Assembly: GCA_024693505.1 (NCBI GenBank)
Contig: JAILKU010000007.1
Span: 1-64,000 of the forward strand
Source of the DNA: Bacteroidaceae bacterium
GTDB taxonomy: Bacteria > Bacteroidota > Bacteroidia > Bacteroidales > Bacteroidaceae
Direction: 5' to 3'
DNA length: 64,000 nucleotides
This document shows, piece after piece, positions 40,736 through 49,994 of this stretch (the first letter of the stretch is position 1; every line of letters begins with the position of its first letter). A program made the position numbers and the translations under genes. The notes below the pieces were generated by a model, which had not been told where the DNA came from, did not search any database, and worked only from the letters and a program-made list of their open reading frames with translations.

Positions 40736-41305
40736 ATGGAAGTAATAAGAACTAAACTGGACGGCGTCTTCATCCTGAAACCCCGCCTGTTCGAGGACGA
40801 AAGGGGTTATTTCTTCGAGAGCTACTCGCAGAGGGAGTTCGACGAGAAGGTGATGCCCGTCCGCTTCGTGCAAGACAACGAGAGCATGAGCTCTTACGGA
40901 GTAATACGGGGACTCCACTACCAGCGGATGCCCTATACGCAGAGCAAGCTGGTGAGGTGCGTTCGCGGCGCGGTGCTCGACGTGGCGGTCGATATCCGCA
41001 GGGGCAGTCCTACATTCGGCGAGCACGTAGCAGTTGAACTGAACGAGGAGAACAAGCTGATGTTCTTCGTCCCAAGGGGCTTTGCCCACGGATTCTCCGT
41101 GCTGAGCGAGACAGCCGTCTTCCAGTACAAATGCGATAACTTCTACCACCCCGAAGCCGATGCAGGCATCAGCCTGAAGGACGAAACGCTGGGCATCGAC
41201 TGGCGCATTCCGGTGGAGAAGGCCATACTGAGCGGGAAAGACCTGCACCACGCCCCGCTGAGGGACTGCGTATTGGACTTTGACATAAACGACAAACTGT
41301 ATTGA
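40736..41305 (+). CDS. rfbC: dTDP-4-dehydrorhamnose 3,5-epimerase
   Basis: This 189-residue cupin enzyme shows DERGYFFESYSQREF, FVQDNESMSSYGVIRGLHYQ (with the catalytic His after RGL) and VRGAVLDVAVDIRRGSPTFG, the family signature. It epimerises C3 and C5 of dTDP-4-keto-6-deoxyglucose in dTDP-L-rhamnose synthesis. It is the first gene of the operon; its stop codon overlaps an ATG, and rfbD follows after 17 bp. Confidence 0.95.
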   Translation: MEVIRTKLDGVFILKPRLFEDERGYFFESYSQREFDEKVMPVRFVQDNESMSSYGVIRGLHYQRMPYTQSKLVRCVRGAVLDVAVDIRRGSPTFGEHVAVELNEENKLMFFVPRGFAHGFSVLSETAVFQYKCDNFYHPEADAGISLKDETLGIDWRIPVEKAILSGKDLHHAPLRDCVLDFDINDKLY

Positions 41306-41322
41306 TGAAGGAGGCACGGACA

Positions 41323-42228
41323 ATGAATATCCTGATAACCGGAGCAAACGGGCAGCTGGGACGCGAGATGCGGCTGATGGCGCAGGAGAGCGCCGACCGC
41401 TACGTCTTCACCGACGTCACCGAGGCGGAAGGGCTGGAGACCACCTTCCTGGACATTACCGATCGCCAGGCCGTCTTCCAGATGGTACGGGAACAGAGCG
41501 TGGATGTCATCGTTAACTGTGCCGCCTACACGAATGTGGATGCTGCCGAAGCGAATGAGGCGCTGGCTGAACGGCTGAATGCCGAAGCGCCGGAGAACCT
41601 GGCCCTGGCCATGAAGGAAGCGGGCGGACTGCTGGTGCAGATCAGTACCGACTACGTCTTCGGCAAGGAGCCGTATAACATCCCCTGCCGCGAAGACTGG
41701 CAGGGCACGCCGACAGGAGCATACGGCCGCACCAAGCTGCACGGCGAGCAGCACATCATACAGAGCGGATGCCAATACATCATCCTGCGTACCGCCTGGC
41801 TCTTCAGCGAATACGGCAAGAACTTCGTGAAGACTATGCTCAACCTGACGGCCTCGAGGCCTGCGCTGAAGGTGGTCTTCGACCAGGTGGGCACACCGAC
41901 CTACGCCTTGGACCTGGCAAGGGCCATCTGCACCATTGTCGCCCAGTATGCCGAGCGACGGCAGACACCCTGGGAGAAGGCAGGCATCTATCACTACTCC
42001 AACGAAGGCGTTTGCTCGTGGTTCGACTTTGCCCGTATGATTGCGGAGTATGCCGGCCACAGGGATTGCGACATCCAGCCCTGCCACAGCGACGAGTTCC
42101 CCAGTCCCGTCAGGCGTCCTGCCTATAGCGTACTGGACAAGACGAAGGTGAAGCAGACCTTCGGCCTGAATATCCCCTACTGGACAGACTCGCTGAAGGA
42201 ATGTCTCTCGAAAATAAACAATAGATGA
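41323..42228 (+). CDS. rfbD: dTDP-4-dehydrorhamnose reductase
   Basis: This 301-residue SDR-type enzyme has the Rossmann motif ITGANGQLGREM, the STDYVFG segment and the YxxxK pair (YGRTKLHGE). It carries out the last step of dTDP-L-rhamnose synthesis with NAD(P)H. The ATG at 41323 is chosen because AAGGAGG lies 8 bp before it; an in-frame ATG at 41305 overlaps the rfbC stop and would add MKEART. Confidence 0.94.
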   Translation: MNILITGANGQLGREMRLMAQESADRYVFTDVTEAEGLETTFLDITDRQAVFQMVREQSVDVIVNCAAYTNVDAAEANEALAERLNAEAPENLALAMKEAGGLLVQISTDYVFGKEPYNIPCREDWQGTPTGAYGRTKLHGEQHIIQSGCQYIILRTAWLFSEYGKNFVKTMLNLTASRPALKVVFDQVGTPTYALDLARAICTIVAQYAERRQTPWEKAGIYHYSNEGVCSWFDFARMIAEYAGHRDCDIQPCHSDEFPSPVRRPAYSVLDKTKVKQTFGLNIPYWTDSLKECLSKINNR

Positions 42229-42265
42229 CGGACGAAGACCGATGGCCAACGAACAATAGAATAAT

Positions 42266-43171
42266 GTGAAAGGAATAGTTTTAGCAGGTGGTTCGGGTAC
42301 CAGGCTTTACCCCATCACCAAGGGAATCAGCAAGCAGCTGATGCCCATCTACGACAAGCCGATGATTTACTATCCCATCAGCGTACTGATGCTGGCGGGC
42401 ATAAGGGATATCCTGATTATCTCCACGCCCTTCGACTTGCCGGGCTTCCGGCGCCTGCTGGGCGACGGCAGCGACTACGGGGTACACTTCGAGTATGCCG
42501 AGCAGCCAAGTCCCGACGGGCTGGCTCAGGCCTTCACCATCGGAGCAGACTTCATCGGGAAGGACTGCGCCTGCCTGGTGCTGGGAGACAATATTTTCCA
42601 GGGCAACGGCTTCAGCCAGATGCTGCGCAATGCCGTACGGACGGCCGAGGAGGAAGGAAAGGCCACCGTCTTCGGCTACTGGGTGAACGACCCGGAACAA
42701 TATGGCGTAGCCGAGTTCGACAGGGAAGGCAACTGTCTCTCGATCGAGGAGAAACCGCAAGAGCCCAAGAGCAACTATGCCGTAGTAGGCCTCTACTTCT
42801 ACCCGAACAAGGTGGTGGACGTGGCGCGGCACATACAGCCCAGCGCAAGAGGCGAATACGAAATCACGACGGTAAACCAAAGATTCCTGAAGGACGGCGA
42901 GCTGAAGGTGCAGACGCTGGGGCGGGGCTTTGCCTGGCTCGATACGGGCACTCACGACTCGCTCTCGGAAGCCTCTACCTACATCGAGGTGCTCGAGAAG
43001 CGCCAGGGCCTGAAAGTGGGATGCCTCGAAGGCATCGCCTACCGCAAGGGGTGGATCGACGAAGAGCGCATGCGCCAGCTGGCTCAGCCCATGCTGAAGA
43101 ACCAGTACGGACAGTATCTGCTGAAAGTGATCGACGAAGTCAAAAAGTTCGGTCCCGGAATAGACTTATAA
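42266..43171 (+). CDS. rfbA: Glucose-1-phosphate thymidylyltransferase
   Basis: This 301-residue nucleotidyltransferase begins [24 protein letters not shown] (signature split: [11 protein letters not shown] then [12 protein letters not shown]), followed by VLGDNIFQG and the [12 protein letters not shown] block. It makes dTDP-glucose from dTTP and glucose-1-phosphate, the first step of the rhamnose pathway. The start is a GTG at 42266 that overlaps an upstream ATGTGA. It is part of the rfbCDAB run. Confidence 0.94.
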
Positions 43172-43182
43172 GCCCCCGCATT

Positions 43183-43248
43183 TTGCAAAACCCGGGTCTG
43201 GGAATTGCAAAACCCGGGTCTGGGAATTACGGAACCCGGGTCTAGTAA
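43183..43248. repeat. Three tandem 22-bp repeats between rfbA and rfbB
   Basis: Units at 43183, 43205 and 43227. The first two are identical (TTGCAAAACCCGGGTCTGGG plus AA) and the third is diverged (TTACGGAACCCGGGTCTAGT plus AA). Each unit contains the palindrome ACCCGGGT. They start 12 bp after the rfbA stop. Confidence 0.85.
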
Positions 43249-43312
43249 AAACAGGACCCCTGAATAACAAATTGAAACAACCCTTTTGAATACTCACATA
43301 AACAAAGACAAA

Positions 43313-44449
43313 ATGAAAAGAAACATCGTAATAACCGGCGGCGCAGGCTTCATTGGAAGTCACGTAGTACGCCTTTTCGTGAATAAGTACCCCGAGTACA
43401 ACATCATCAACCTGGACAAGCTGACCTATGCCGGCAACCTGGCCAACCTGAAGGACGTGGAGAATAAGCCCAACTACAAGTTCGTCAAGATGGACATCTG
43501 CGACTACGACGCCTTCCTGCAGCTGATGAAGGACGAGCAGATTGACGGCATCATCCACCTGGCAGCCGAGAGCCACGTTGACCGCAGCATCAAGGATCCC
43601 TTCACCTTCGCCAAGACAAACGTGATGGGCACCCTGAGCCTGCTGCAGGCCGCCAAGGTCTACTGGGAATCCCTGCCCGGGAAGTACGAGGGCAAGCGCT
43701 TCTACCACATCTCGACCGACGAGGTCTACGGCGCCCTGGAGATGACGAATCCCGAGGGCATCGAGCCGCCCTTCACCACCACGGCCAGCAGCAGCCAGCA
43801 TCATCTGGCCTACGGCAAGGACTTCTTCTACGAGACCACGAAGTATAATCCCCACTCGCCCTACTCGGCAGCAAAGGCCAGCTCGGACCATTTCGTCCGC
43901 GCCTATCACGACACCTACGGCATGCCCACTATCGTGACGAACTGCTCGAACAACTACGGTCCCTACCAGTTCCCCGAGAAGCTGATACCCCTCTTCATCA
44001 ACAATATCCGGCATCGCAAGCCGCTCCCCGTCTACGGCAAGGGAGAGAACGTGCGCGACTGGCTCTTCGTGGAGGACCACGCCCGGGCCATCGACGTCAT
44101 CTTCCATCAGGGCAAGGTGGCCGAGACCTACAACATCGGCGGCTTCAACGAATGGAAGAACATCGATATCATCAAGGTGGTCATCAATACGGTTGACCGT
44201 CTGCTGGGCCGCAAGGAAGGCGAGGACATGGACCTCATCACCTACGTTACCGACCGCCTGGGACACGATGCCCGCTATGCCATCGACAGCACCAAGCTGC
44301 AGAAGGAACTGGGCTGGGAACCCTCGCTCCAGTTCGAGGAGGGCATCGAGAAGACGGTGCGCTGGTATCTGGACAACCAGGAATGGATGGACAACATCAC
44401 CAGCGGCGAATACGAGAAATATTACGAGAGTATGTATGCCGGGCGATAG
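43313..44449 (+). CDS. rfbB: dTDP-glucose 4,6-dehydratase
   Basis: The product (378 residues from the ATG at 43313) is an extended SDR with ITGGAGFIGSHVVR, HLAAESHVDRSI, the catalytic THR/Asp/Glu segment STDEVYG and the YSAAKASSDHFVRAYH (Tyr/Lys) motif. It converts dTDP-glucose to dTDP-4-keto-6-deoxyglucose. A long insertion after STDEVYG (TTASSSQHHLAYGKDFF) is typical of Bacteroidota enzymes as far as I recall. An upstream TTG at 43286 is not preferred. It completes the four-gene rhamnose set. Confidence 0.95.
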   Translation: MKRNIVITGGAGFIGSHVVRLFVNKYPEYNIINLDKLTYAGNLANLKDVENKPNYKFVKMDICDYDAFLQLMKDEQIDGIIHLAAESHVDRSIKDPFTFAKTNVMGTLSLLQAAKVYWESLPGKYEGKRFYHISTDEVYGALEMTNPEGIEPPFTTTASSSQHHLAYGKDFFYETTKYNPHSPYSAAKASSDHFVRAYHDTYGMPTIVTNCSNNYGPYQFPEKLIPLFINNIRHRKPLPVYGKGENVRDWLFVEDHARAIDVIFHQGKVAETYNIGGFNEWKNIDIIKVVINTVDRLLGRKEGEDMDLITYVTDRLGHDARYAIDSTKLQKELGWEPSLQFEEGIEKTVRWYLDNQEWMDNITSGEYEKYYESMYAGR

Positions 44450-44500
44450 AGCTGCGGCACACAATCCCGCCAGAACAAACAAAATAAAGACGCCTCAGAA

Positions 44501-45622
44501 ATGAAAAGCAAGACCCTCCTGATTGCAGCCCTGGGCTGCATCGCCCTCACCCTCAGCGGGTGCAGGCCGGCTGAGAAAGGCCGCGTAGAAAGCACAGTCA
44601 CCAACCCCATCCCCCTGAAGTTCGGCGACCCCTACCTGCTTCACGCCAGCGACGGCCGCTACTATATGTACGGCACTTCGATGGCCGACGGCTTCGAGGC
44701 CTTCGTCAGCGACGACCTGCTGAACTGGGAGCCCTGCGGACGCATCTATCAGGGCGGCGGCCAGGAGCAATGGTGCGTGGATTGTTTCTGGGCGCCCGAG
44801 GTCTATGAGCGCGACGGCAAGTACTATCTTTTCTTCAGCGCCAACTATCGCGAGAATCCCACCAACGAAGGCGAGAACTTCAAGATTGGCGTAGCCGTCA
44901 GCGACAGCCCGGCAGGACCCTTCAAGGACCTGATGAACCGCCCCGTCTTCAATCCCGAGTATCCCATCATCGATGCGAACGTCTATTTCGACGACGAGGC
45001 AGGGCGCTGCTACCTCTACTTCAGCCGCTGCTGCTACAAGCACAGCGTAGAGAGCGAGATTGCCGACTCGCTCAGGCAGGCCGGCTCCTACCCCGAGATA
45101 GAGGAGAGCTGGGTCTATGGCGTAGAACTGAAGCCCGACTTCAGCGGCGTCATCGGCGAACCGCAACTGCTGCTGGCTCCGCCCACCCGGCTGGACGACG
45201 TTCAGGCCGAATGGGAAAGCCGCAGCGCCACCCAGGGCGAGGCCAACCGCCGCTGGACGGAAGGCAGCTATCTGATTAAGGAAGGCCAGAAGTACTACAT
45301 CATGTACAGCGCCAACTGCTATCAGGGCAAGAACTATGCCGTAGGCTATGCCACAGGAGATAATCCCCTGGGGCCGTTCCAAAAGGCACAGAACAATCCC
45401 GTCCTGCAGGAGAATGTCAGCCGCGGCGGCACAGTAATGGGCACAGGACACAACATGGTTATCACTATGCCCGACGGCAATCGATACTGCGTCTATCACG
45501 GACGGATGAGCGACAATCCCGACGAGCGCGTTGTCCTGATGGACCGGATGGACATCAGCCAGGACGGCATCCTGACAGTTGACGGCCCAACCACCGAGCC
45601 ACAGACCATCTGCGTCGAATAA
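44501..45622 (+). CDS. GH43-like glycosidase lipoprotein
   Basis: This 373-residue lipoprotein (lipobox LSGC, Cys about 21) has a five-blade propeller of the GH43/GH117 superfamily: FGDPYLLHASDGRYYMYGT (Asp base), CFWAPEVYERDGKYYLFFSA, IIDANVYFDDEAG (second Asp) and WTEGSYLIK (Glu acid), then GTGHNMVI. It likely removes arabinose, xylose or galactose side groups; the substrate is not determined. It lies 51 bp after rfbB and 12 bp before the steroid reductase-like gene, so transcription may run through from the rhamnose genes. Confidence 0.82.
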   Translation: MKSKTLLIAALGCIALTLSGCRPAEKGRVESTVTNPIPLKFGDPYLLHASDGRYYMYGTSMADGFEAFVSDDLLNWEPCGRIYQGGGQEQWCVDCFWAPEVYERDGKYYLFFSANYRENPTNEGENFKIGVAVSDSPAGPFKDLMNRPVFNPEYPIIDANVYFDDEAGRCYLYFSRCCYKHSVESEIADSLRQAGSYPEIEESWVYGVELKPDFSGVIGEPQLLLAPPTRLDDVQAEWESRSATQGEANRRWTEGSYLIKEGQKYYIMYSANCYQGKNYAVGYATGDNPLGPFQKAQNNPVLQENVSRGGTVMGTGHNMVITMPDGNRYCVYHGRMSDNPDERVVLMDRMDISQDGILTVDGPTTEPQTICVE

Positions 45623-45634
45623 GAAGAAAAAACT

Positions 45635-46402
45635 ATGGACTATAAACTGTGGACTTTCCTGATTTGGGGCATGCTGGCAATGGCTGTTGTAGTCTTTGTC
45701 TCGCTCTATTTCGTCACAGCCGGCTACGGACAGTTCCGCACGAAGCAATGGGGCTGGAGCATAAACAACAAAGTGGGCTGGACGCTGATGGAAGCACCGG
45801 TCTTCTTTGTTATGCTGGCTATCTGGGGCGCATCGGGCTGGAGTCGGCACATACCCGAAATAGTACTGCTCGGCCTCTTCCTGCTGCATTACTTTCAGCG
45901 CAGCTTCGTTTTTCCGCTACTGCTGAAGGGTAAGAGCCGTATGCCCATAGCAATCATGCTGATGGGCGTTGTCTTCAATGTCATTAACGGAATCATGCAG
46001 GGCGGCGGACTCTACTGGTATCCCAATCCCGATTTTCAGGAGGGCGCGGCCTATCTGCTGCGCTGGAATGCCGTATTGGGGGTATTCCTTTTTATAACGG
46101 GTTTGTGTGTCAACTGGCACTCGGACTACGTTATTCGCCACCTTCGTCAACCTGGCGATACGCGTCATTACCTGCCACAACGCGGAATGTTTCGTTATGT
46201 AACCAGTGCAAACTATTTAGGAGAACTAATGGAATGGATTGGTTATGCCTTTGCCGCTGCTACGCCAGTAGCATGGGTTTTCCCCATTTGGACAGCAGCA
46301 AACCTGGTTCCGCGAGCTCATGCAATTCACAAGAAGTACCGTGCAGAGTTTGGAGACGAAGCTGTTGGAAAGAGAAAGCGCGTCATACCGTTTGTCTATT
46401 AG
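45635..46402 (+). CDS. SRD5A-type 3-oxo-5-alpha-steroid 4-dehydrogenase (membrane)
   Basis: This 255-residue integral membrane protein has about six to seven hydrophobic segments and matches the eukaryotic SRD5A1/2 family along its length. WTLMEAPVFF holds Glu53, equivalent to the catalytic Glu57 of human SRD5A2. LHYFQRSFVFPLL holds Tyr86, equivalent to Tyr91. The C-terminal block YVTSANYLGELMEWIGYAFA and VIPFVY are the NADPH-binding/C-terminal signature. Such enzymes reduce the 4,5 double bond of 3-oxo-4-ene steroids to the 5-alpha product. Bacteroidales homologs have been linked to allo-bile acid formation. Its neighbours, an OYE-type reductase and an SDR, fit a steroid or bile-acid module. 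Other isoprenoid enone substrates remain possible. Confidence 0.88.
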   Translation: MDYKLWTFLIWGMLAMAVVVFVSLYFVTAGYGQFRTKQWGWSINNKVGWTLMEAPVFFVMLAIWGASGWSRHIPEIVLLGLFLLHYFQRSFVFPLLLKGKSRMPIAIMLMGVVFNVINGIMQGGGLYWYPNPDFQEGAAYLLRWNAVLGVFLFITGLCVNWHSDYVIRHLRQPGDTRHYLPQRGMFRYVTSANYLGELMEWIGYAFAAATPVAWVFPIWTAANLVPRAHAIHKKYRAEFGDEAVGKRKRVIPFVY

Positions 46403-46417
46403 AAAGGCCTTTGTATT

Positions 46418-47665
46418 ATGAATAAGATTTTTGAAGAAGCTAAGATAGGACCGCTAACCCTGAGGAACCGTACGATTCGCAGCGCGGCTTTCGAAAGTAT
46501 GTGCCCAGGTCACGAACCCAGCCAGATGCTCTATGACTACCACACCAGTGTGGCCAGGGGTGGAGTTGGCATGACAACTATAGCGTATGCCGCCGTTACA
46601 GAGAGCGGGCTCAGTTTTGACCGCCAGCTTGTCATGAAGAAGGAAATAGTCCCTGGGCTGCGGCGGCTTACCGATGGCATTCATCGCGAAGGAGCTGCAG
46701 CAGGCATACAGCTAGGGCACTGCGGCAACATGAGTCACAAGGCTATTTGCGGCTGTATCCCTGTAGGAGCCTGCAACGGCTTCAACCTGTATAGTCCTAC
46801 GATTGTCAGAGGACTTCGTGCTGACGAACTCCCCGTCTTGGCACGCAAGTTTGGTGATGCTGTAAACTTGGCTCGCGAAGCAGGTTTCGATGAAGTGGAG
46901 ATTCATTGTGGTCACGGATATCTGATAGACCAGTTCCTGAACCCCTACTTCAACCATCGGCACGATGAATATGGGGGTAGCCTGGAGAATCGTATGCGCT
47001 TCATGACAATGTGCATCGAGGAAGTTATGAAAGCGGCCAAAGATGATATAGCTGTAGTTTGTAAGATGAATATGCGCGACGGACTGAAGCATGGCATCTC
47101 GCTGGAGGAACATAGCATACCCGTAGCCCGCCGCCTGCAGGAACTCGGCGTTCACGCCATCGTGCTGAGCGGTGGACTGGTCAGCGCCACGCCGATGTAC
47201 GTTATGCGCGGCGAGATGCCTCTGCAGACCATGACGCACTATATGGATAAGCCCTGGCTGAAGTACAGCATCCGATCGGCCAAGCCGTTCGTAAAGAAAT
47301 GCCTTACGCCGACAGTCAACTATCAAGAGGCGTTCTTTCTGGAAGATGCCCTTCGCTTCCGCCAAGCCTTGCCTGAAATGAAGTTTATCTATGTGGGCGG
47401 CCTGGTGGCCGGAGATAAGATTAGTGAAGTCTTGGGACACGGATTTGAAGCAGTCCAAATGGCACGAAGCCTGCTTAACGAGCCGGATTTCGTGAACCGC
47501 CTGAAGGAAGACCCTCACCATCGGTGCAGTTGTCGGCATAGCAACTATTGCATCGGACGAATGTATACTCTGGAGATGGCTTGTCATCAGCATCTTTCAG
47601 AAGAACTGCCAAAAGACCTCATTAGGGAAATAGACAGAATCGAAAAAGAACAGGCTGGAAAATGA
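46418..47665 (+). CDS. Old Yellow Enzyme family NADH:flavin oxidoreductase
   Basis: This 415-residue protein has an FMN-binding TIM barrel of the OYE/2,4-dienoyl-CoA reductase type: IGPLTLRNRTIRSA, IQLGHCGN, FDEVEIHCGHGYLIDQFLNP and NRRD-like text (YFNHRHDEYGGSLENRMRF), and EAVQMARSLLNEPDF near the end. Cysteines near the C-terminus (CSCRHSNYC and a later Cys) recall the 4Fe-4S loop of BaiCD-like enzymes, but spacing is not canonical. The protein ends after the barrel, without the C-terminal NADPH domain of full dienoyl reductases. OYE-type enzymes in gut bacteria reduce 3-oxo-4-ene steroids to 5-beta products, which fits its place between an SRD5A homolog and an SDR. Confidence 0.85.
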   Translation: MNKIFEEAKIGPLTLRNRTIRSAAFESMCPGHEPSQMLYDYHTSVARGGVGMTTIAYAAVTESGLSFDRQLVMKKEIVPGLRRLTDGIHREGAAAGIQLGHCGNMSHKAICGCIPVGACNGFNLYSPTIVRGLRADELPVLARKFGDAVNLAREAGFDEVEIHCGHGYLIDQFLNPYFNHRHDEYGGSLENRMRFMTMCIEEVMKAAKDDIAVVCKMNMRDGLKHGISLEEHSIPVARRLQELGVHAIVLSGGLVSATPMYVMRGEMPLQTMTHYMDKPWLKYSIRSAKPFVKKCLTPTVNYQEAFFLEDALRFRQALPEMKFIYVGGLVAGDKISEVLGHGFEAVQMARSLLNEPDFVNRLKEDPHHRCSCRHSNYCIGRMYTLEMACHQHLSEELPKDLIREIDRIEKEQAGK

Positions 47666-47690
47666 ATCCGGCCTATTAATAAGGAATAAT

Positions 47691-48530
47691 ATGAAATTAG
47701 CTATTATCACCGGTGCCGATGGAGGCATGGGATACGAAGAGACAAAGGCTGTGGCCGAAAAGGGATATCACGTTATTATGGCCTGCTTCTGCCCGAAGAA
47801 AGCGGAGCTGAAGTGTAAGAAGCTGAAAGATGAAACGCTCAACCCCAACATCGAGGTCATAGGCATCGACCTGGCTAATCTGGCTCTGGTACGTCAATTC
47901 GCCGACACGGTCAAGAGCCGTTTCGGGCATGTGGACCTGCTCATGAACAATGCAGGTACTATGGAAACCGGCTTCCACTATACCGTAGATGGACTGGAAC
48001 GCACCATTAGCGTGAATTATGTGGGTCCTTACCTGCTCACGCGCCTACTACTGCCTTTGATGGACAAGGGCAGCCGCATTGTGAACATGGCCTCGCTTGT
48101 CTATCCGTGGGGGAGACTTAACTTCCCGCAATTTTTCGAACGCGGCATGAAAGGCTGGTGGTTGCGTTGCTTTCCTTACTTTAATTCCAAACTGGCCATC
48201 ACTCTTTTCACTTTCGAACTGGCTAAACGTGTAAAGGAAAGAGGCATCACGGTCAATGCAGCCGACCCGGGCATTGTCAGTACGAATATCATACGTATGC
48301 AAATGTGGTTCGACCCCATTACTGACCTCATCTTCCGCCCCATTATCCGCACTCCGCGTCAGGGGGCAGATACAGCCATTCACCTTTTGCTTGATGAGGA
48401 AAAAGCCGAGCAAACGGGCACCTTCAACCGTTCCAATCATATTTTCGATATAGGGGAAAAGTACACGAACCATAAACAGATGGGCGAACTTTGGAATCGC
48501 ACAGAAGAGATTGTAAAAGAATTCTTATAG
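47691..48530 (+). CDS. Short-chain dehydrogenase/reductase, candidate hydroxysteroid dehydrogenase
   Basis: This 279-residue classical SDR shows TGADGGMG (cofactor glycine motif, TGxxxGxG), LLMNNAGT, the catalytic Ser in NMASLVY and YFNSK (YxxxK), followed by DPGIVSTNI. It uses NAD(H) or NADP(H) to interconvert an alcohol and a ketone. With the two preceding enone reductases it would complete reduction of a 3-oxo-4-ene steroid to a 3-hydroxy product, so a 3-alpha- or 3-beta-hydroxysteroid role is inferred, not proven. It lies 25 bp after the OYE gene. Confidence 0.82.
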   Translation: MKLAIITGADGGMGYEETKAVAEKGYHVIMACFCPKKAELKCKKLKDETLNPNIEVIGIDLANLALVRQFADTVKSRFGHVDLLMNNAGTMETGFHYTVDGLERTISVNYVGPYLLTRLLLPLMDKGSRIVNMASLVYPWGRLNFPQFFERGMKGWWLRCFPYFNSKLAITLFTFELAKRVKERGITVNAADPGIVSTNIIRMQMWFDPITDLIFRPIIRTPRQGADTAIHLLLDEEKAEQTGTFNRSNHIFDIGEKYTNHKQMGELWNRTEEIVKEFL

Positions 48531-48546
48531 CCATAGAGCAGTGGGA

Positions 48547-48554
48547 TACCTTTG
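48547..48554 (+). promoter_or_regulatory. Possible promoter -7 box of the AGCS symporter gene
   Basis: TACCTTTG fits TAnnTTTG and lies 42 bp before the ATG at 48597, after the SDR stop. No good -33 element was found. Confidence 0.45.
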
Positions 48555-48596
48555 TCATATTTATTGGAAGAACCATATTAGAAGCACACTACCGCT

Positions 48597-49994
48597 ATGA
48601 CTGAATTCATTACCTGTATAAGTGATGCTTTATGGAGCTATTTGCTTATTTTTATACTGATAGGATGCGGGCTGTGGTTTACATTCCGTACACGCTTTGT
48701 GCAGTTTCGCATGATTGGCGAGATGGTCCGTCTGCTTGCTGATTCAGCCGTTCCAAGCGATAAGGGCAAACACCATATTTCCTCTTTCCAGGCTTTTGCT
48801 GTGTCTGTTGCCACTCGAGTCGGAACAGGCAATTTGGCCGGTGTGGCGACAGCTATAGCAATCGGCGGCCCTGGAGCGGTCTTTTGGATGTGGGTAATTG
48901 CTCTTTTCGGTTCTGCTACCGCTTTTGTGGAGTCCACGTTAAGTCAGCTCTATAAACAACGGCATCGCGAGTCATTTATCGGCGGTCCTGCTTATTATAT
49001 CCGTCGTGGCTTGCATTGTCGCTGGATGTCTGTTCTCTTTGCCATCTTGATAACCATTACATTTGGGCTTTCTTATAATTCCATACAGAGTAATACCATC
49101 TGTAGTGCTATGCAGGAAGCTTTTGGGTGGTCGCCTCTTTGGGTGGGCTTGGTGCTTTCATTTCTTTCATTGGTTATCGTCTTCGGAGGTATTCATCGCA
49201 TAGCCCGTGTCAGTTCAGTTCTTGTCCCAGTAATGGCAATTGGCTACGTCTTACTTGCCCTTGTCGTAATAATTATGAATTTCAACCTTCTCCCTCACGT
49301 CTTTAAGGTGATTATTTCCAGTGCTTTCGGTCTCGAACAAATTACGGGTGGAGGCCTTGGTGCCACGATGATGAATGGCATAAAACGCGGGCTCTTCAGC
49401 AATGAAGCTGGTGAGGGAAGTGCGCCGAACGTAGCAGCTACTGCAACGACATCGCATCCCGTCAAGCAGGGACTCATTCAGGCACTCGGCGTATTTACCG
49501 ATACGTTGATTGTCTGTTCCTGCACGGCTTTTATCATAATTATAAGCGGTCTTTATACGTCACCCGAACTTAACGGTATCGTGCTTACTCAGGCATCCCT
49601 GCAATCTGAGGTCGGTGTTGCAGGTCCTTTTTTCATTGCCTTAGCAATATTCTTGTTTGCGTTCTCCAGTATCATTGGCAATTATTATTATGGCGAAGCA
49701 AATATACGCTTTATGACCGAAAGCCGAAGTGTAATGGTACTATATCGCCTTTTTTCGGGCGGAGTTATGGTCATGTTTGGAGCCTTGGCAACCCTTAATC
49801 TTGTATGGAGCCTGGGAGATTTGTGTATGGCTCTGATTACGGCTTGCAATCTTGTTGCCATCATTGCTCTGGGAAAATATGTCTTCCTCCTGCTTGATGA
49901 CTATCGCCGTCAGAAACGGCAGGGCATAAAGGATCCTGTCTTCCATCGTTCACAACTTCCCGATATCGCAAATGACTTGGACTGCTGGGAGTGA
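48597..49994 (+). CDS. AGCS-family sodium:alanine/glycine symporter
   Basis: This 465-residue membrane protein has about ten transmembrane segments and AGCS signatures: SSFQAFAVSVATRVGTGNLAGVA, GGPGAVFWMW, GLFSNEAGEGSAPNVAATA and the final SLGDLCMALITACNL. It imports alanine, glycine or related amino acids with sodium. Base composition is more AT-rich than in the polysaccharide genes. It may be an independent unit downstream of the steroid-type genes; a link in function is not evident. Confidence 0.9.
   Translation: MTEFITCISDALWSYLLIFILIGCGLWFTFRTRFVQFRMIGEMVRLLADSAVPSDKGKHHISSFQAFAVSVATRVGTGNLAGVATAIAIGGPGAVFWMWVIALFGSATAFVESTLSQLYKQRHRESFIGGPAYYIRRGLHCRWMSVLFAILITITFGLSYNSIQSNTICSAMQEAFGWSPLWVGLVLSFLSLVIVFGGIHRIARVSSVLVPVMAIGYVLLALVVIIMNFNLLPHVFKVIISSAFGLEQITGGGLGATMMNGIKRGLFSNEAGEGSAPNVAATATTSHPVKQGLIQALGVFTDTLIVCSCTAFIIIISGLYTSPELNGIVLTQASLQSEVGVAGPFFIALAIFLFAFSSIIGNYYYGEANIRFMTESRSVMVLYRLFSGGVMVMFGALATLNLVWSLGDLCMALITACNLVAIIALGKYVFLLLDDYRRQKRQGIKDPVFHRSQLPDIANDLDCWE

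Follow-up and report, generated by a model that had tools for sequence, protein, structure and literature searches.

The stretch analysed here, called the window throughout, comprises 64,000 nucleotides of contig JAILKU010000007.1 from a Bacteroidaceae bacterium (assembly GCA_024693505.1), and it carries three adjacent plus-strand genes for a candidate SRD5A-type 5α-reductase (AR), a flavoprotein of the Old Yellow Enzyme (OYE) class and a classical short-chain dehydrogenase (SDR), separated by gaps of 15 and 25 bp (Table 1). An earlier note on this DNA had claimed the same three-gene layout, and coordinates, strand and Pfam matches agree with it. Judged from sequence, the three genes probably form a steroid A-ring redox module of the type reported from gut Bacteroidetes.

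Table 1. Location of the three genes, of their neighbours in the window and of related arrangements at other loci.
Feature	Location	Strand	Basis
AR, SRD5A-type membrane protein, 3-oxo-steroid 5α-reductase candidate, 255 aa, 'MEY' variant	45635..46402	+	PF02544; 7c83; 7bw1; residues
OYE, FMN-type ene-reductase with BaiCD-like barrel, 415 aa; candidate 5β-reductase/dehydrogenase	46418..47665	+	PF00724; BaiCD model; conserved Cys
SDR, classical short-chain dehydrogenase, 279 aa, candidate 3-hydroxysteroid dehydrogenase	47691..48530	+	PF00106; conserved residues
GH43-family protein; ends 12 bp upstream of AR	44501..45622	+	PF04616, 179 bits
Sodium:alanine symporter family (AgcS) protein; starts 66 bp downstream of SDR	48597..49994	+	PF01235, 528 bits
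cysN-AR-sulfotransferase operon	L011:4878-9887; L010:2-9914; L018:497-9926		
Extended SDRs, 511-512 aa, adjoining AR; 3Beta_HSD similarity in the first	L123:5382-6917; L141:2588-4126	both -	

AR matches the Pfam family PF02544 with 124 bits (cut-off 22.6) and is the single such match in the genome of the window, whose assembly is 87% complete. Because this family is also matched in 3 of 14 named control genomes, in two of them above the cut-off, membership alone is no proof of a steroid substrate. The similarity of AR to PbSRD5A (PDB 7c83, E 6.8e-48) and to human SRD5A2 (PDB 7bw1, E 4.1e-40) extends over nearly the full length, while the match to enoyl-CoA reductase reaches only E 4.1e-4. The earlier note had reckoned with an affiliation of AR with non-steroid reductases; part of that question is answered by this distance, which places AR far nearer to PbSRD5A and SRD5A2 than to enoyl-CoA reductase, the tree being one without SRD5A3 and plant DET2. 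A search of the phylum with PF02544 gave matches in 55 of 296 genomes, and above 150 bits, besides the window, only L083-L085. The AR tree was built quickly, and PbSRD5A, SRD5A2 and L083-L085 sit on long branches in it; only its placements among Bacteroidales are used here.

When aligned with the solved structures, E53 and Y86 of the window AR fall on the catalytic E57 and Y91 of human SRD5A2, and each of these two equivalents is kept in 77/77 rows of Bacteroidales-type AR. The block YVTSANYLGELMEW is also found in the protein, so that the catalytic Glu and Tyr and the C-terminal block of SRD5A, as the earlier note had described them, are indeed there. Passages of PMC7815742 describe a signature Q56-E57-Y91 ('QEY') and eight NADPH residues in SRD5A2, and report that Q56A/L abolishes the activity of the human enzyme. 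The window AR has Met52 at the position of Gln56 and thus departs from the signature at Gln; seven of the eight NADPH residues are kept (N160, D164, R171, N193, E197, R227 and Y235) and the eighth, H231, is replaced by I231. Across the 77 rows, some of which are duplicates (the AR tree, with 82 rows, represents 74 different sequences), the Gln56 position is always Met, as it is in L083-L085, and the His231 position is Ile in 57, Leu in 19 and Val in 1. Thirteen remoter Bacteroidota ARs (L083-L085 and L151-L160, the latter standing for 10 of the 28 genomes whose AR matched more weakly in the order-wide search described below) likewise have Met for Gln56, and 12 of them keep His231, with Asn in L159. 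The close AR type thus has a residue signature of its own. Loss of His231 does not track possession of OYE cleanly, and that explanation was set aside: the His-keeping L152, L153 and L158 come from genomes with an OYE elsewhere. As a separate observation, in L072 (G032) and L074 (G004), both from the genus of the window, OYE and SDR are at 71-83% identity while the AR beside them is divergent, at 50-56%, as would be seen if AR, and neither of the other two genes, had been replaced or had changed more rapidly.

The second gene product matches PF00724 with 167 bits (cut-off 27), in agreement with the flavin-dependent reductase of the OYE family that had been proposed. Its best NCBIfam model is BaiCD (NF041087), with 172 bits over positions 2-258 of 642; the cut-off of 825 is not reached, and the C-terminal FAD domain is absent from the 415-aa protein. 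A profile of 31 OYEs matched the barrel of YqjM with E 2.6e-47 and the C-terminal part of YqjM weakly, YqjM being the best-scoring solved structure. H163, H166 and Y168 are kept in at least 97% of 48 rows, and by their motif we take the two histidines to be the OYE active-site pair. The same 48 rows have Cys372, Cys378 and Cys389 in 47, 47 and 48 cases; an additional Cys stands at position 369 in 15 rows or at position 370 in 22. Two irregular loci were seen: an OYE match with an in-frame TGA, a pseudogene or an assembly error (G437:C3:308559-309767), and a 408-aa open reading frame (ORF) between AR and OYE (L020:3189-4415). As for the third gene, the SDR matches PF00106 with 111 bits (cut-off 26.6) and its N109, S135, Y163 and K167, presumably the Asn-Ser-Tyr-Lys set of classical SDRs, are kept in at least 97% of 22 rows, as suits the classical SDR named previously.

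One genome_contigs scan returned 58 loci with AR. A compact triad is present at 20 of them, an AR-OYE pair with the SDR 2.3-4.6 kb farther at three, and AR without OYE at eight, one locus being cut by the contig end; every matched OYE lies on the same strand as AR. We then considered a set of 325 Bacteroidales genomes of at least 90% completeness, to which the window's own at 87% had been added, which were searched for AR, OYE and an extended SDR described below. AR at E 1e-40 or better occurs in 72 of the 325 and the close AR (at least 42% identity) in 44, while OYE occurs in 51. The two coincide in 42 of the 44 close-AR genomes, and 37 AR-OYE pairs lie on one strand with 11-586 bp between the matched parts. 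On these counts chance adjacency of AR and OYE was rejected, the Fisher values for co-occurrence being ones that ignore shared ancestry.

The picture is similar within the genus, where the set comprised 37 genomes including the window's own, the others being 61-92% complete. Fourteen of them carry AR, and 13 of these 14 also have the close OYE and the close SDR, G019 having neither; G006 and G007 have a remoter OYE and no AR. In G002 each of the three genes is on a contig of its own, and in G029 AR lies away from the other two. Since the co-occurrence persists in these two genomes despite the separation, it supports a shared function of the three genes. The Phocaeicola loci L023 and L026 show the gene order of the window, with identities of 53-59% for AR, 68-70% for OYE and 50-57% for SDR.

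A cluster of this kind, with a 5α-reductase (5AR), a 5β-reductase (5BR) and a 3β-hydroxysteroid dehydrogenase (3β-HSDH) that lead to isoallolithocholic acid (isoalloLCA), reportedly goes back to Sato et al. 2021 and Li et al. 2021. In passages of a review (PMC10382948), strains of P. merdae, O. laneus and B. dorei are said to convert 3-oxo-Δ4-lithocholic acid (3-oxo-Δ4-LCA) into isoalloLCA, disruption of 5AR in P. merdae blocks the alloLCA derivatives, and the 5AR gene clusters with a predicted 3β-HSDH and an NADH:flavin oxidoreductase, which is hypothesised to be the 5β-reductase. Parts of PMC11271093 and PMC12697870 refer to another study in which these three activities were described, the latter article speaking of gene clusters, and an excerpt of PMC6069880 on sequenced chicken Bacteroidetes isolates finds a 5AR gene in nearly all. 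The window has a 5AR candidate above the PF02544 cut-off and, 15 bp downstream, a flavin oxidoreductase of the cluster type with BaiCD as its best model, below cut-off; a classical SDR, a candidate for the clustered 3β-HSDH, follows. Its cluster is a further member of the reported type, and the gene combination is not new. The earlier note suggested that both 5α and 5β products could be made; the two reductase types, with predicted roles, do co-occur (42/44), and the pairing had already been reported.

On this basis we propose how the module would work. The SDR would interconvert a 3-hydroxyl and a 3-ketone, and the flavin of the OYE would move hydrogens between a 5β-3-oxo-steroid and the 3-oxo-4-ene. 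Because the OYE lacks the FAD domain, a separate partner may supply its electrons, perhaps through the Cys group. The membrane AR would then use NADPH to convert the 3-oxo-4-ene into the flat 5α-3-oxo-steroid, which the SDR would reduce to the alcohol. The net outcome would be the conversion of a bent 5β or a 4-ene steroid into a flat 5α-hydroxysteroid, whose 3-hydroxyl might afterwards be sulfated by the products of a cysC-cysD-cysN-sulfotransferase run on another contig of the genome. The sequences themselves show the gene content, the active-site residues, their conservation and the linkage; the direction, stereochemistry and substrate of the module, as well as the sulfation, are what we infer.

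The three genes stand in a longer co-directional run, since the GH43 and AgcS genes flank them closely on the same strand. From 40736 to 49994 the window carries, all on the plus strand, four rhamnose-like ORFs, the GH43 gene, the triad and the AgcS carrier; by the look of their sequences we take the four ORFs to be dTDP-rhamnose genes. The triad may be transcribed by read-through from the upstream genes in the lineage of the window, and neither the GH43-family nor the AgcS neighbour is probably part of the A-ring module. Among the 58 loci, several of which end early at contig ends, GH43 adjoins AR in L002 and L005 only and the AgcS carrier adjoins the cluster in L002 only. The rhamnose/GH43 neighbourhood is therefore lineage-specific, and a functional tie between it and the triad was set aside. 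The earlier note had called the placement behind a rhamnose operon and GH43 unusual, which is right in the sense that it is confined to this lineage, the rhamnose names being presumed.

Some relatives have AR in a sulfation context. At three of the eight AR-only loci (L010, L011 and L018) AR lies between cysN and a sulfotransferase gene, with cysC and cysD upstream; the sulfotransferase is Sulfotransfer_3 in L011 and L018, and L010 and L018 have a further large ORF between cysD and cysN. This arrangement is reminiscent of the BT_0412-0416 cholesterol-sulfate cluster of Bacteroides. L010 shares an identical AR with G029, and L018 with G002; each of these pairs is probably one genome. G019 carries AR, truncated there at the contig end, followed by the extended SDR and a sulfotransferase gene. 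G001 has, on one strand, the triad 6.3 kb before a transporter-like gene and 8 kb before the cysC of a complete run, and in G017 AR and a sulfotransferase gene are about 15 kb apart. In all, AR and sulfotransferase lie within 20 kb of each other in 5 of the 14 genus AR carriers. The genome of the window has its run of transporter-like gene, cysC, cysD, cysN and sulfotransferase on a contig other than that of the triad (G000:C68:1332-7125). Enrichment of sulfotransferase in AR carriers was not clear (12/14 against 15/23 of the others); it is the physical linkage, not the presence, that stands out, and three of the five cases represent one or two events. The binomial value for the linkage is ~1e-6 with shared ancestry ignored.

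The extended SDR of G019 matches Epimerase with 52 bits and 3Beta_HSD with 35 bits (cut-off 22), and its C-terminal cysteines are kept in 6-7 of 8 rows. An extended SDR of ~511 aa was found in 22 of the 325 Bacteroidales genomes, 19 of which have AR. Its gene lies next to AR in G019; in G467 the neighbour of AR is a relative with 32% identity. At six further loci (L142-L147) neither AR nor sulfotransferase was found near it. In the genus search of 37 genomes it occurs in three, two of them AR carriers, and was not found in the genome of the window. Part of PMC13079761 describes SpiR as a 520-aa SDR with Δ5-4 isomerase/3-keto reductase activity and a Cys-bearing C-terminal domain. The extended SDR resembles SpiR in length, domain and C-terminal Cys, and differs in Cys spacing; it could supply the step from a Δ5-3β-ol to a Δ4-3-one. 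One extended-SDR match, at G039:C40:72040-73464, has an in-frame TAA and is a pseudogene or an assembly error.

The origin of the nearest relatives bears on the substrate. The AR clade of the window comprises 31 rows (SH-aLRT 99) and includes 19 genome_contigs loci, whose sources by title are rumen or omasum (4), RUG metagenome-assembled genomes (MAGs; 7), red deer or reindeer with the organ unnamed (2), water-buffalo cecum (1) and no host (5). We take the RUG label to denote a rumen MAG. Thus 13 of the 19 named loci look ruminant-derived by title, nine of these 13 by the presumed label or the host only. Bile enters the gut below the rumen. As a marker of bile exposure we considered PF02275, the bile salt hydrolase family, and rejected it because it gave no significant contrast: it occurs in 0/14 genus AR carriers, but in only 3/37 genus genomes overall (p 0.27), and it also matches 4 of the 14 control genomes.

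Epismilagenin, smilagenone, smilagenin and tigogenin represent 5β and 5α, 3α and 3β forms. An excerpt of PMC10385484 describes the conversion of sapogenins in the rumen into these four compounds, continuing in the caecum and colon, and according to passages of PMC5535167 the rumen saturates and epimerises diosgenin. The ruminal sapogenin reactions are a set that the module could carry out. We think dietary plant steroids (sapogenins, phytosterols) a likelier substrate than bile acid in the genus of the window, a view that is plausible if short of probable. Of the steroid/bile-acid module that had been claimed, homology, synteny and co-occurrence give the steroid A-ring part good support; the bile-acid part is less certain, as many near relatives look ruminant-derived. 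In its fullest form our proposal is that the module is a genetic basis for the way in which plant steroids, such as phytosterols and sapogenins of the diosgenin type, are reduced in the A ring and epimerised at C3 in the rumen. Bacteroidales would convert 3-oxo-4-ene steroids from the diet into flat 5α-hydroxysteroids, with products sulfated in some species and the 5α-reductase recruited to the sulfation operon; so extended, the proposal is a doubtful one.

Several observations weigh against these interpretations. One MAG of the same clade is from cecum, where bile acids occur. AR-OYE pairs without an SDR of the window's type account for 26 of the 58 loci, and orthology with the P. merdae and B. 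dorei enzymes is drawn from gene content. The changes of Gln56 to Met and His231 to Ile mean that function is not simply transferable from human SRD5A2. As for sulfation, the cysN-AR-sulfotransferase arrangement was met in a single AR subclade of five rows, which makes it one event, and was not seen at 5 of the 8 AR-only loci; sulfotransferase itself is present in 27/37 genus genomes.

The cluster might instead be a bile-acid module as in human gut Bacteroidetes, taking 3-oxoLCA or 3-oxo-Δ4-LCA to isoalloLCA, with the foregut link incidental and the species maybe resident in the lower gut. The three gene types match those reported, the Phocaeicola loci share the gene order, and isoalloLCA has been measured in cow large intestine (in an excerpt of PMC9750977), whereas many near relatives look foregut-derived; the lack of PF02275 in genus AR carriers points the same way, though 34 of the 37 genus genomes are without it. 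We regard this as possible but not as the probable account. It is quite improbable that the substrate of the AR clade is an endogenous lipid or terpenoid, for example a polyprenol or quinone enone, with OYE and SDR serving that same route. The replacement of Gln56 by Met and of His231 by aliphatic residues in 77/77 rows and the wide occurrence of the AR-OYE pair in Bacteroidales would suit such a role, but AR is patchy (14/37 in the genus, among MAGs of 61-92% completeness, and 72/325 in the order), it is far nearer to steroid 5α-reductases than to enoyl-CoA reductase, and in P. merdae disruption of 5AR stops the alloLCA derivatives (passages of PMC10382948).

A different question concerns the OYE, which could be another ene-reductase, acting for example on Δ1 or Δ6 bonds or on plant enones, that stands beside AR because their substrates are related. 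Its BaiCD score of 172 against a cut-off of 825, the missing FAD domain and YqjM as the top solved structure all agree with this, yet the co-occurrence with AR (42/44) fits one common substrate and the 5β role is put forward as a hypothesis in the review (part of PMC10382948). Such an assignment seems unlikely to us.

Should the cluster carry out the ruminal diosgenin conversion, candidate genes and species for it become testable. When diosgenin is saturated and epimerised in the rumen, epismilagenin is formed, and grazing animals suffer liver injury and photosensitization as a consequence, as passages of PMC5535167 describe; no bacterial genes for ruminal sapogenin conversion are named among the titles listed by our literature searches, which is no proof of absence in print. 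If the proposal is true, a gene cluster noted in people for its immune-active bile acids has a part in steroid chemistry more broadly, and Bacteroidales are a group in which 5α-reduction can go together with the sulfation of steroids.

Compared with known systems, the window cluster resembles the Bacteroidetes isoalloLCA cluster in having the three gene types clustered, the SDR as a candidate 3β-HSDH, and in belonging to the same bacterial order, and differs from it in that its lineage has many ruminant MAGs and that some relatives have AR in a sulfation-type operon. Its AR shares with PbSRD5A (7c83) and human SRD5A2 (7bw1) a near-full-length similarity, the catalytic Glu and Tyr and seven of the eight NADPH residues, but has, like all 77 rows at each position, Met for Gln56 and Ile, Leu or Val for His231. 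The OYE is similar to BaiCD/2,4-dienoyl-CoA reductase OYEs in its N-terminal FMN barrel with a Cys group behind it, a group that we liken to the Fe-S site of the 2,4-dienoyl-CoA reductase class, and unlike the BaiCD class it ends after 415 aa without a C-terminal FAD/NAD(P)H domain and misses the cut-off. Finally, the BT_0412-0416 cluster of Bacteroides thetaiotaomicron makes cholesterol sulfate, as stated in part of PMC9417993. The window genome's run of transporter-like gene, cysC, cysD, cysN and sulfotransferase is like it in layout only, the transporter label being given by eye, whereas L010, L011 and L018 differ from it in the SRD5A-type gene between cysN and sulfotransferase, and L010 and L018 also in the extra large ORF between cysD and cysN.

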